From contig MCGT01000002.1 in NCBI GenBank assembly GCA_002104935.1, forward strand, positions 1,178,001 through 1,242,000: a stretch of DNA of 64,000 nt. The letters are read 5' to 3'. The notes under the pieces are model-generated. The model worked only from the letters and a program-made list of their open reading frames with translations. It searched no databases and was not told the origin of the DNA. The DNA comes from Hesseltinella vesiculosa (lineage: Eukaryota > Mucoromycota > Mucoromycetes > Mucorales > Cunninghamellaceae). The translations under genes were made by a program, and so were the position numbers. This document shows positions 33,609 through 37,216 of the stretch, piece by piece. Position 1 is the stretch's first letter. The number at the start of each line of letters is the position of its first letter.

Positions 33609-34697
33609 ATGACTTTAGCTTTGTCGACCCGGCAAAATACGCGGTTATGCAAGGAAGCGGCTGTCGTTGGTGACCCTTTTAACGGTGGCCAGCCCAGAGA
33701 AGGTGTCGAAGTCGGTCCCATCCAGTTCATTGAATGCAGCCTTTTGGAGCAAATCAACACACTTGGCTGGTCGCCCACCTACATACCCAACGACGAACAA
33801 ATCGATCAACTCTGTCCCAAGGACGATCCCGTTGTGTTCAACCTGATCAATCCCAAGTTTGTCTCCGCCGTCACTCACCATGTGGCCAAGCAGATCTACG
33901 ACCAAGCTGCCCAGCGTAAATTTGTTCTCACCCTCGGTGACGATCATGCCATCGCCCTCGGCACAGTGTCTGGCATCTTTGAAGCCTACCCAGATGCCTG
34001 TGTCGTTTCGGTGGATACACATGCCGTACGCTTTTCACATTAAAAAGTCCTCGGGAACCTGCTCTCGGCTCATCCCATTTCTTTTCATAGGACATCAATA
34101 CCCCCGAAACAACCTCGTCAGGCAACATTCATGGCTGTCCTCTTAGCCGCCCATCCCGATTCCAATGGGTCCAACCCGTGCTCAACAGACCGTCTTGTCT
34201 ACATTGGCTTGCGCGACGTGAATGCCCACCTTGCAGTCCACCTTTTTTTTTTTTTTTGGCTAGGTCGACGATGGTGAAAAGAAGATCCTCAAGGACCTTG
34301 GCATCAAGGCATTTTCTATGCACCACATCGATCGCTTCGGCATCGGCCGTGTGATCGACATCGCCCTGGACCACGTCAATCCCAACCGCGACCGTCCTAT
34401 CCATCTCTCTTTTGATGTCGACGCCTTGGACCCCACTGTCGCTCCCAGCACGGTAGCACCACACCCGCCCACCCAGTCTTGTCCACTGACGCTTCTCTAC
34501 AGGGCACCCCCGTCCGAGGTGGCTTGACCTTCCGCGAAGGCCATTCCATCTGCGAAGCCCTCGCCCAAACAGGCTCCCTCGTCGCCATGGACGTCGTCGA
34601 GGTCAACCCAGCCTTGGAAGACGACAAATCTGCGCTGCGCACCATCCAAATCGGCTGCCCCCTAGCCTGCTGTGCTCTTGGAGAAAATCTTTTGTAA
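33609..34697 (+). CDS. Arginase with frame-breaking lesion (possible pseudogene)
   Basis: Manganese enzyme hydrolysing arginine to ornithine and urea (family knowledge). Segments 33609-34025, 34091-34217, 34264-34452, 34503-34697. Family motifs present: [13 protein letters not shown] (usual GGDHS, here GDDHA), VSVDTHADINTP (usual DAHAD), [42 protein letters not shown] and [14 protein letters not shown]. The His and Asp manganese ligands are retained. Exon 2 is 127 nt, whereas its flanking joins (DTHA|DINT and LRD|VDDGE) both need phase 0. The first half fits GNIHGCPLS…[10 protein letters not shown] and the second half fits [12 protein letters not shown] in another frame. The stretch between GCPLS and RFQW also looks about ten residues short. 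Either a sequencing/assembly error or a decayed gene. Confidence 0.8.
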
Positions 34698-34874
34698 ATT
34701 GCATTCCCTCTTGTTCCTGAGGGTTCTCTTTGTCAATAAAACTTCCTCCTCTCTTTTTCATGGCGAAAAAAAAAAAGGGGATTTTCAACACCCGGCCCTC
34801 GCCTTTGAAAAACAGCGGAACTTTTTTTTTTTTTTTTTCCTCTTCTTCTTTCCCTCTCTACACGTCGATCAACG

Positions 34875-35657
34875 ATGAAGTAAGCATCCATCCATCCGTC
34901 ATGACCATCCATCCATCAAACGCGCTCACCCATCATCCCGTTTCTTTACAGGCTCGAAATTTGTTCGTTCTCCGGCTACAAGATCTACCCTGCCAAGGGT
35001 AAGACCTACGTCCGCATTGACAGCAGGTAACAATGGCAAACCATTCTATCTTGCCACAATGATCCTCATCTCTTTTTCTCTCCTCTCTTTATAGAGTACG
35101 TACATTCCCCTCCCTTTCCCCCCACTCGATCCCTCCATGCACTGGAGAGAAGATGCAACCCACACCCAGCCAGCGATCACACCTTTTGACCCACCAACTC
35201 ATCCACTCCATTCCTCGAGTCAACTCCACTCCTTTTTTTTTTTTTGAATGGGCTACTCTCAACTATTCAGCCACCCCACCATCATCACCGCTTCTCTCTT
35301 CTCTCCAGTGCATTGGCCGTATCTCTTCTCTGTCCAGCGTCACTCATCCATTCTTTTTTTATATAGACCTTCCGTTTCATCAACGGTAAGGCTGAATCTT
35401 ACTTCCTCCAACGTCTGAACCCCCGCAAGGTGCGCTGGACCACCATCTACCGTCGCCTCAACAAGAAGGGTATCACTGAAGAAGTTGCCAAGAAGCGCTC
35501 TCGCAAGACTGTCAAGCACGAACGTGCCGTTGCCGGCACCACCTGGGAAGCCATCCGTGCCAAGCGTAACCAAAAGCCCGATGCCCGTGCCGCTGCCCGT
35601 CAAGCTGCCATTGCCAAGTCCAAGGAAGCTAAGAAGGCTACCGCCAAGAAGGCCTAA
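34875..35657 (+). CDS. RPL24: 60S ribosomal protein eL24
   Basis: Large-subunit ribosomal protein. Coding exons: 34875-34879 (ATGAA, 5 nt), 34952-35026, 35095 (one nucleotide) and 35367-35657, giving 123 aa, shorter than yeast eL24 (about 155) because of a brief C-terminal extension. Sequence landmarks: MKLEICSFSGYKIYPAKGK, TYVRIDSRTFRFINGKAES, NPRKVRWTTIYRRLNKKG, ITEEVAKKRSRKTVK, then an Ala/Lys-rich tail. Exon 2 ends in phase 2 (…GACAGCAG|GTAACA) and the last exon must begin in phase 0 at ACCTTCCGT, so exactly one extra nucleotide is required. The A at 35095 supplies it and makes AGA, Arg, exactly where yeast has Lys (RGDSKIFRF). The ATG-proximal first intron is typical of ribosomal protein genes. 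Identity is certain; the splicing model is inference. Confidence 0.93.
35095..35095 (+). other. RPL24: Putative single-nucleotide exon of RPL24
   Basis: The A is preceded by a long pyrimidine tract ending TTTATAG (3' splice site) and followed directly by GTACGT (5' splice site). It is the only nucleotide needed to keep the eL24 frame and align it without insertion. It splits what would otherwise be a 340-nt intron into 68 and 271 nt. Confidence 0.65.
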
Positions 35658-36313
35658 ATTTTGTATTCCACGTCCAACATTAAACACGCAATCCGTGCAC
35701 TTGTCCCTCTCCCTTTCATCTGCTTCGCATCCGGCCAGGATATCCTCTTTTATTTTCAGAGCTCTTCTGGAGTTGCCTGCGATCGAATGAGCTGGCTGTC
35801 GTCCCCTTCTGCTCAGGGTGCGCGAGAGTTTTATTTTCTTGACCTGCCCCATAGCTACACCCGCATCGCCCCCCTTTCTGTGCAAAGCACGAGCAGCATT
35901 GCGCATCCATAAACCATGATTTCTACCTCCATCCCGCCTTTTCAATGTCAACATGCGATTTCCACTTCACGCATCCCCCCATCCTTCTGCCATCCCTTTC
36001 GCAGCTCTGATCTTCCTAAGCCCAATGCTGGACACAGAACCCCACATGTTTCGCTTGATTCCGCTTGATTCTTGTCTATCCCTACGATCCTCTCCCGCCT
36101 GCGCAAGATTTCAGACCACTCATGCCGCTTGCGCTCTCTGGACAAACAACGTCACAGGCGCCAAAAAAAAAAAAAAAAAAAAGGCCTGAATTCTCGGTTT
36201 TGCTGCACTTTTCTGGTTGAAGCAAACATATCTGGATCCTGATCAGGTCTGAGTGAGCGATTTGAGAAAGAAAAAGAAGACAAGAAAAAAAAGAGCGCCT
36301 TGTTTTCTACCTT
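35658..36313. other. 3' region of RPL24 and spacer
   Basis: Follows the eL24 stop. C/T-rich, with an A-run at 36162-36181. A long minus-strand open frame runs into this region from the antisense of RPL24 but has no independent support. No gene seen. Confidence 0.55.
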
Positions 36314-36957: not shown

Positions 36958-36959
36958 TC

Positions 36960-37030
36960 TGGAGATGGCGAGAATCGAACTCGCGTTTCAACTATGCGAA
37001 AGTAGTATTCTACCACTAAATTACATCCCC
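36960..37030 (-). tRNA. tRNA-Ala (anticodon CGC)
   Basis: A 71-nt cloverleaf on the minus strand, no intron. The acceptor GGGGATG pairs with CATCTCC and contains the G3:U70 wobble that identifies tRNA-Ala. D-stem ATTT/GAAT with loop AGTGGTA. Anticodon stem CTACT/AGTTG has one mismatch (position 28-42), loop TTCGCAT with anticodon CGC. T-arm GCGAG TTCGATT CTCGC is perfect. The A/T-rich D-stem differs from the usual GCTC/GAGC of Ala tRNAs. It lies in the centre of a large inverted repeat and is followed by a T8 terminator. Confidence 0.88.
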
Positions 37031-37216
37031 AAAACTGGGGGCTAAACCCCGAAAATGCTCTTGTTTTGTGCTCGGCATTTCGGCCGCCGTATTTCCGGGC
37101 GTCTCGGATTGGCTGATGACTGCTCTTTCCTTTTTTGTATGTTTTTTTTTTCTTTGGGATCAGGTGAGTTTGCGTTGCTTTTTTATTTGGAATTTCATGA
37201 CAACAACTCCATTAAT

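Follow-up and report, generated by a model that had tools for sequence, protein, structure and literature searches.

The eL24 ribosomal protein gene in the analysed window (the whole stretch of 64,000 nucleotides) is almost certainly expressed through an exon of a single nucleotide: judging from its sequence, its pre-mRNA would be spliced through the A at position 35095, at which two GT-AG introns meet. We infer that inclusion of this base would be constitutive. The layout of the gene is as follows, with a slash marking an exon border here and throughout.

34875..35657, plus strand: eL24 gene, ending with a TAA stop
34875..34879, plus strand: coding exon 1 (ATGAA, 5 coding nt)
34880..34951, plus strand: intron 1 (GTAAGC...TTACAG, 72 nt)
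34952..35026, plus strand: exon 2, ending in phase 2 (GAC AGC AG)
35027..35094, plus strand: intron 2 (GTAACA...TTATAG, 68 nt)
35095..35095, plus strand: predicted single-nucleotide exon A, third base of the Arg27 codon AG/A (top of 23 open bridges; spliced alignment with Absidia repens eL24; T at C13:203074 in the paralogue)
35096..35366, plus strand: intron 3 (GTACGT...ATATAG, 271 nt)
35367..35657, plus strand: last exon, starting in phase 0, stop codon TAA included

Reading frame and bridging exons of the eL24 gene

Exon 2 ends in GACAGCAG/GTAACA and leaves its codon after two bases (GAC AGC AG), and the last exon begins at ATATAG/ACC TTC with an in-frame TAG directly upstream. Between phase 2 at 35026 and phase 0 at 35367, exactly one nucleotide is missing for the conserved eL24 frame, and joining the two exons without a bridge results in a frameshift and a stop. 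This deficit was the starting point of the original prediction, whose coordinates hold, as does its claim that A35095 supplies an arginine without insertion or gap. When A35095 (context TTTATAG/A/GTACGT) is included, an open eL24 of 123 residues is obtained, in which Arg27 is restored (AGA) and nothing is inserted. This protein matches Pfam PF01246 (Ribosomal_L24e) over profile positions 1-66 of 66 (E 3.7e-30), and residues 1-119 align gap-free with two solved eL24 chains (those with printed alignments). Position 27 is nearly invariant among 26 aligned eL24 sequences. Intron 2 carries a branch-like CTCAT with its A 26 nt upstream of the 3' end.

Several observations concern the surroundings of the gene. 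Some relatives' eL24 models begin differently at the exon 34875-34879 (e.g. P0004, P0013, P0015). A search of 34800-35800 against Rfam at gathering thresholds gave no match. At 34264-34696 lies the end of an upstream gene (reading SFDVDALDP...GGLTFREG), which by eye looks arginase-like, and ARAGORN predicts a tRNA-Ala (CGC) on the minus strand at 36959-37031.

In order to compare A35095 with other ways of closing the frame, we listed all bridging exons with an AG acceptor and a GT or GC donor, a length of 1 mod 3, no stop and borders lying 20 nt or more inside the gap. Their splice sites were scored with matrices built on 65 introns of this genome with homology support, eL24 being left out. 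To obtain these introns, small GTPase, E2 and actin loci were aligned to yeast proteins with a spliced aligner; 66 passed the flank filter, and one longer than 300 nt was removed. Since at least two of these introns are artefactual calls at the predicted one-base exons of Rho1 described below, the matrices were also rebuilt without the Rho1 locus (59 introns). A TAG acceptor is found in 53/65 matrix introns, and their donors are GTAAGT-like. Two attempts at learning the splice sites without homology had given blurred motifs and false introns and were replaced by the spliced alignment; one homology-free matrix, which ranked other bridges above the one-base exon in both eL24 copies, was discarded (more than one third of its donors read GTC).

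Of the 23 open bridges in the gap of the window copy, the single nucleotide scores best by a wide margin. A35095 reaches 17.1 bits, compared to 12.6 and 12.5 bits for two longer exons with the same acceptor and 8.0 bits for the best bridge beginning elsewhere. Two further single nucleotides are among the 23: T35309 has a GC donor, and use of C35338 would leave an intron of no more than 28 nt. The original prediction had chosen A35095 and had named one longer alternative, 35271-35307. Given the Absidia repens protein alone, the spliced aligner picked the one-base exon unprompted in both eL24 copies.

The splice sites directly around the single base are canonical and typical for the genome in both copies: relative to the 65 matrix introns, the acceptor ranks 42 in the window and 35 in the paralogue on contig C13, and the donor ranks 20 and 65, respectively. 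Two features count against the exon: the upstream donor, GTAACA, reaches a modest rank of 13 among the 65, and the base before the downstream donor is A in the window and T in the paralogue, while 66% of the matrix donors have G. Sites of the form AG/N/GT that score at least as high as the window site occur 4 times per 528,000 strand-positions, A35095 itself counted in, and none reaches the score of the paralogue. In a control of 400,000 strand-positions (20 stretches of contig C12 picked regardless of gene content), one site reached the window score and none the paralogue score; with the matrices built without the Rho1 locus, these counts were two and one.

The second eL24 copy, relatives and rival explanations

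Searching the genome (27.05 Mb, 85 contigs) revealed an eL24 paralogue on contig C13. Its exon 2 ends in GAC AGC CG/GTAAGT and its last exon begins at CTATAG/ACT TTC, so that this copy is one base short at the same codon as the window copy. Here, the predicted bridge is a single T at C13:203074, in GTCAATAG/T/GTAAGT (CAATAG acceptor), which gives CGT, again arginine; it tops 11 open bridges with 18.4 bits, compared to 7.7 bits for the best bridge beginning elsewhere. The coding sequences of the two copies are identical at 342/372 bases, and the proteins differ at 2/123 residues. The introns around the single base measure 68 and 271 nt in the window and 108 and 91 nt on C13. The best match between the upstream introns spans 9 bases (E 0.033), and that between the downstream introns is a poly-T stretch (E 0.009). 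The predicted exon is kept while the introns diverge, at the DNA level for the paralogue and, for other species, as seen through protein models only. A base that differs between the copies (A or T) yet still gives arginine, within otherwise diverged introns, is the trace expected from selection on a real exon. Elsewhere in the genome, a distant eL24-like exon (41% identity) lies at G000:C19:130656-130787, perhaps from the ribosome-biogenesis relative RLP24.

A protein search found 546 eL24 relatives, of which 120 were listed and all 120 classified by script. Among the matches listed, the nearest named proteins come from Cunninghamella, Gongronella and Absidia, which makes a mucoralean fungus the most likely source of the window. 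Clades were assigned by the listed species names (Umbelopsis alone was looked up), which placed 56 of the 120 in Mucorales/Umbelopsidales; the other 64 include unnamed metagenome proteins that may possibly be Mucoromycotina themselves. Among these 120, the exon junction is broken in 37/56 Mucorales/Umbelopsidales models versus 2/64 of the others (Fisher p 2e-14, with rows that are related, come from shared pipelines and are not independent). The junction is normal in the remaining 19/56 models, whose genes may or may not hold the exon. Of the 37 broken models, ten lack VRIDSR or the corresponding residues, as if a spurious donor further upstream had been called. Another 15 carry inserted or altered residues following DS, seven were classed as having exon 2 in another frame, and five as other; on inspection, P0022 and P0035 among these five are also losses. 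Among those not assigned to the clade, 62/64 listed proteins fit the normal pattern without insertion, and neither of the two misses has an insertion (P0077 is one residue off the pattern, and P0083 has one residue fewer).

Seven of the 15 insertions start with Arg-Val-Arg/Ser/Cys (P0017, P0023, P0024, P0029, P0036, P0052, P0072), in six species of Absidia, Mucor, Rhizopus, Rhizomucor and Lichtheimia. Such residues would correspond to AG/A GTA CGT, A GTA AGT or A GTA TGT read through into the next donor by the gene caller. Pattern matches to eL24 numbered 214 in the prokaryote and 120 in the virus collection, none of which was confirmed as a relative. Judged indirectly, from the fungal protein models, the one-base exon is probably old in Mucoromycotina, and we infer its conservation across this group.

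Three other explanations of the missing base were weighed. A base deleted by sequencing or assembly at the exon border would have produced a false phase deficit, since one extra border base turns the gap into an ordinary phase-0 intron. Against this, the paralogue also lacks one base at this codon, where its exon 2 ends in another dinucleotide (CG), and it has its own strong T exon; in addition, the junction is broken in annotated models of relatives from many genera. Because the base differs yet arginine is kept, in otherwise diverged introns, a local error is very unlikely; an error near 35020-35100, which the original prediction had named as a possible refutation, is hard to believe with a second locus and many relatives' models affected at the same place. 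A longer intermediate exon (e.g. 35271-35307 or 35309-35318) inserting a few unconserved residues is just as improbable. Open bridges do exist in both gaps, 23 and 11, but the best of those that start elsewhere fall some way below the single base (8.0 vs 17.1 bits in the window, 7.7 vs 18.4 in the paralogue), and no insertion is present in the 64 listed eL24 proteins not assigned to Mucoromycotina or in the two gap-free solved chains.

Least probable of all, to the point of being barely credible, is a non-canonical arrangement, either one intron with a shifted border (AGG/TA... or ...ATA/GACC) or an intron nested in the donor of another. AGG likewise codes for arginine, and stwintrons are described from Ascomycota; against this, both window introns are complete (GTAACA..TATAG and GTACGT..TATAG), which leaves nothing to be rebuilt by a first splicing step, and those of the paralogue are complete too (GTAAGT..AATAG and GTAAGT..TATAG). 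As to related categories, the gene does not qualify as a stwintron: an inner intron interrupting an outer splice element is absent, and both introns have their own donor and acceptor. Nor is it a recursive splice site with a zero-length exon, as one base lies between AG and GT and is needed for the frame.

Proposed splicing route and known one-base exons

The footprints of U2AF on an acceptor and of U1 on a donor cannot both fit around one nucleotide. The intron 2 acceptor and the intron 3 donor, one base apart, could hardly be bound at once, and since U2AF and U1 cannot both sit there, the introns are most likely removed in turn by intron definition, which would be the simplest mechanism. As for the order, the 68-nt upstream intron would probably leave first, producing ...CAGA/GTACGT as the donor of the second step. 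Keeping the base would restore Arg27; skipping it would lead to a frameshift and an early stop. Intron 3 also contains a predicted RNA stem:

35138..35153, plus strand: 5' arm of a perfect 16-bp inverted repeat in intron 3
35297..35312, plus strand: 3' arm of the same stem, over the competing acceptor CTCTCCAG ending at 35308

The predicted pairing probability of 35138-35153 with 35297-35312 is near 1, and the fold of the 340-nt gap has a z-score of -4.34, with 0/100 shuffles as good. Outside the stem remain 96 of the 271 nt of intron 3, so that the effective length of the intron would come close to that of the downstream intron of the paralogue (91 nt). Judged from one sequence, the stem probably loops out 175 nt of intron 3 and hides the rival acceptor ending at 35308.

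The original prediction had called one-nucleotide exons extremely rare and pointed to the plant APC11 case. That case stands, and the rarity has to be qualified by others that have been reported (VPS55, Fusarium CYP621A, a Candida snoRNA host gene). Arabidopsis APC11 is described as having a constitutive single-nucleotide exon between spliceosomal introns, studied with GFP fusion constructs, and its authors propose sequential removal (PMC4674806). It resembles eL24 in the one base between two spliceosomal introns and differs in being a plant gene with another codon affected, whereas eL24 is a fungal ribosomal protein gene in which both paralogues carry the predicted exon with different bases. 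The conserved one-base microexon of plant VPS55, missed by annotation and supported by RNA, is likewise followed directly by a strong GTRAGT donor; in some plant lineages it is alternatively spliced or present in one of two copies, whereas both eL24 copies need the exon for their frame (PMC8831610).

Among fungi, the one-base exon of Fusarium CYP621A is supported by RNA reads and called the first fungal case by its paper (PMC12940212). Like the eL24 exon, it was found by phase incompatibility, and it is conserved among orthologues. CYP621A is a rarely expressed P450 with AGGGT in all its genes (PMC12940212), while the two eL24 copies have different bases, A and T. The Candida parapsilosis group has a further fungal one-base exon in a snoRNA host gene, for which the splicing order is discussed; there, neighbouring introns share splice-site bases and sites are rebuilt by donated bases, in contrast to the complete sites of the coding gene eL24 (PMC5033589). 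Organellar examples, placozoan mitochondrial cox1 (PMC5436844) and Ophiostoma mitochondrial rnl (PMC12308204), also keep one base between two introns, which are of group I or II there and spliceosomal in eL24. In fungal stwintrons, a splice element of the outer intron is interrupted by an inner one; they share with eL24 the complex intervening sequence and the successive removal steps, whereas eL24 has every splice element intact and retains one exonic base. Neighbouring microexons are described for human RPS24 (three, of 3, 18 and 22 bp; PMC11162997) and for a rice gene (5 and 12 nt; PMC8831610). Among titles and abstract starts of open-licence papers, we found no report of a one-base exon in a Mucoromycotina gene or in eL24, nor of tandem one-base exons.

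Predicted tandem one-base exons in Rho1 genes

The scan for high-scoring AG/N/GT sites detected two sites in a Rho GTPase gene on contig C45, both inside a single 282-nt 'intron', and a second such gene was reached through genome-wide motif matches.

C45:111154 and C45:111016, minus strand: predicted single-base exons A and G of Rho1 (L047, G000:C45), from the high-score AG/N/GT scan
C21:231454 and C21:231638, plus strand: predicted single-base exons A and G of Rho1 (L054, G000:C21), from the genome-wide motif matches

The C45 gene reads ...GGT GCC TGC GGC A/GTAAGT ... CATCATAG/A/GTAAGT ... TTTATTAG/G/GTAAGT ... TTTCATAG/ACT TGT. Joined, A, A and G give AAG, the lysine of the Rho1 P-loop GDGACGKTCLL, which is invariant in the family; three introns would thus lie inside one codon. 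Among 31 two-exon bridges whose exons measure up to 60 nt, the A/G pair scores highest (46.1 vs 26.4 bits), and the best single-exon bridge reaches 9.2 bits. The C21 gene reads GGC A/GTAAGT, TTTTATAG/A/GTAAGT, GAATATAG/G/GTAAGC and GAATAG/ACT TGT, and its pair is the best of 43 two-exon bridges under the same length limit (34.1 vs 22.8 bits). The weakest element is the C21 G exon with 13.0 bits, a score reached by 6 sites per 400,000 strand-positions. In the compared coding stretches, the two Rho1 copies are identical at 156/184 bases and encode the same residues. The best matches between their first and second intron pairs have E 0.63 and E 0.12; the third pair shares an exact A-rich 14-mer (E 4e-5) and may retain ancestral sequence.

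Under its penalties, the spliced aligner did not pick the Rho1 pair. It found no further one-base exon in the other GTPase, E2 and actin loci, and because the Rho1 pair was not picked, its silence there is weak evidence either way. The Rho1 P-loop is intact in 24 Mucorales proteins (picked from 120 listed of 7998), a result that is uninformative on the pair in these species.

The motif YYNYAGNGTAAGT has 58 matches in the genome versus 142 for its reversed control and is thus not enriched genome-wide; by itself it proves nothing and is not specific. One of the 58 matches is the known C45 Rho1 exon, and one led to the C21 gene. Two others, read in context, were an ordinary exon end and apparently non-coding DNA, and were rejected as one-base exons. 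Two identical CCATAGAGTAAGT matches lie on opposite strands about 2 kb apart, at G000:C19:139455 (+) and C19:141397 (-). Altogether, six one-base exons are predicted in four genes of two families in this genome.

One-base exons as such are already known; the surprise is the tandem pairs, the recurrence and the likely age. On balance, and with considerable reserve, we favour a wider reading of these comparisons, in which one-base exons would be recurrent and selectively maintained in Mucoromycotina. The eL24 exon would then predate the split of Mucorales and Umbelopsidales, with its base changing in duplicates, and the tandem Rho1 exons would build the P-loop codon AAG one nucleotide at a time across three introns. 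If RNA confirms the eL24 exon, a ribosomal protein gene of presumably high expression relies on an exon below the size limit of exon definition, which would show that sequential splicing by intron definition can reach the accuracy needed there. Many public eL24 models of Mucoromycotina would then be wrong, and gene callers would be missing one-base exons. The two eL24 and two Rho1 copies, with their different exon bases or intron lengths, would represent natural replicates for the order, context and fidelity of this splicing.
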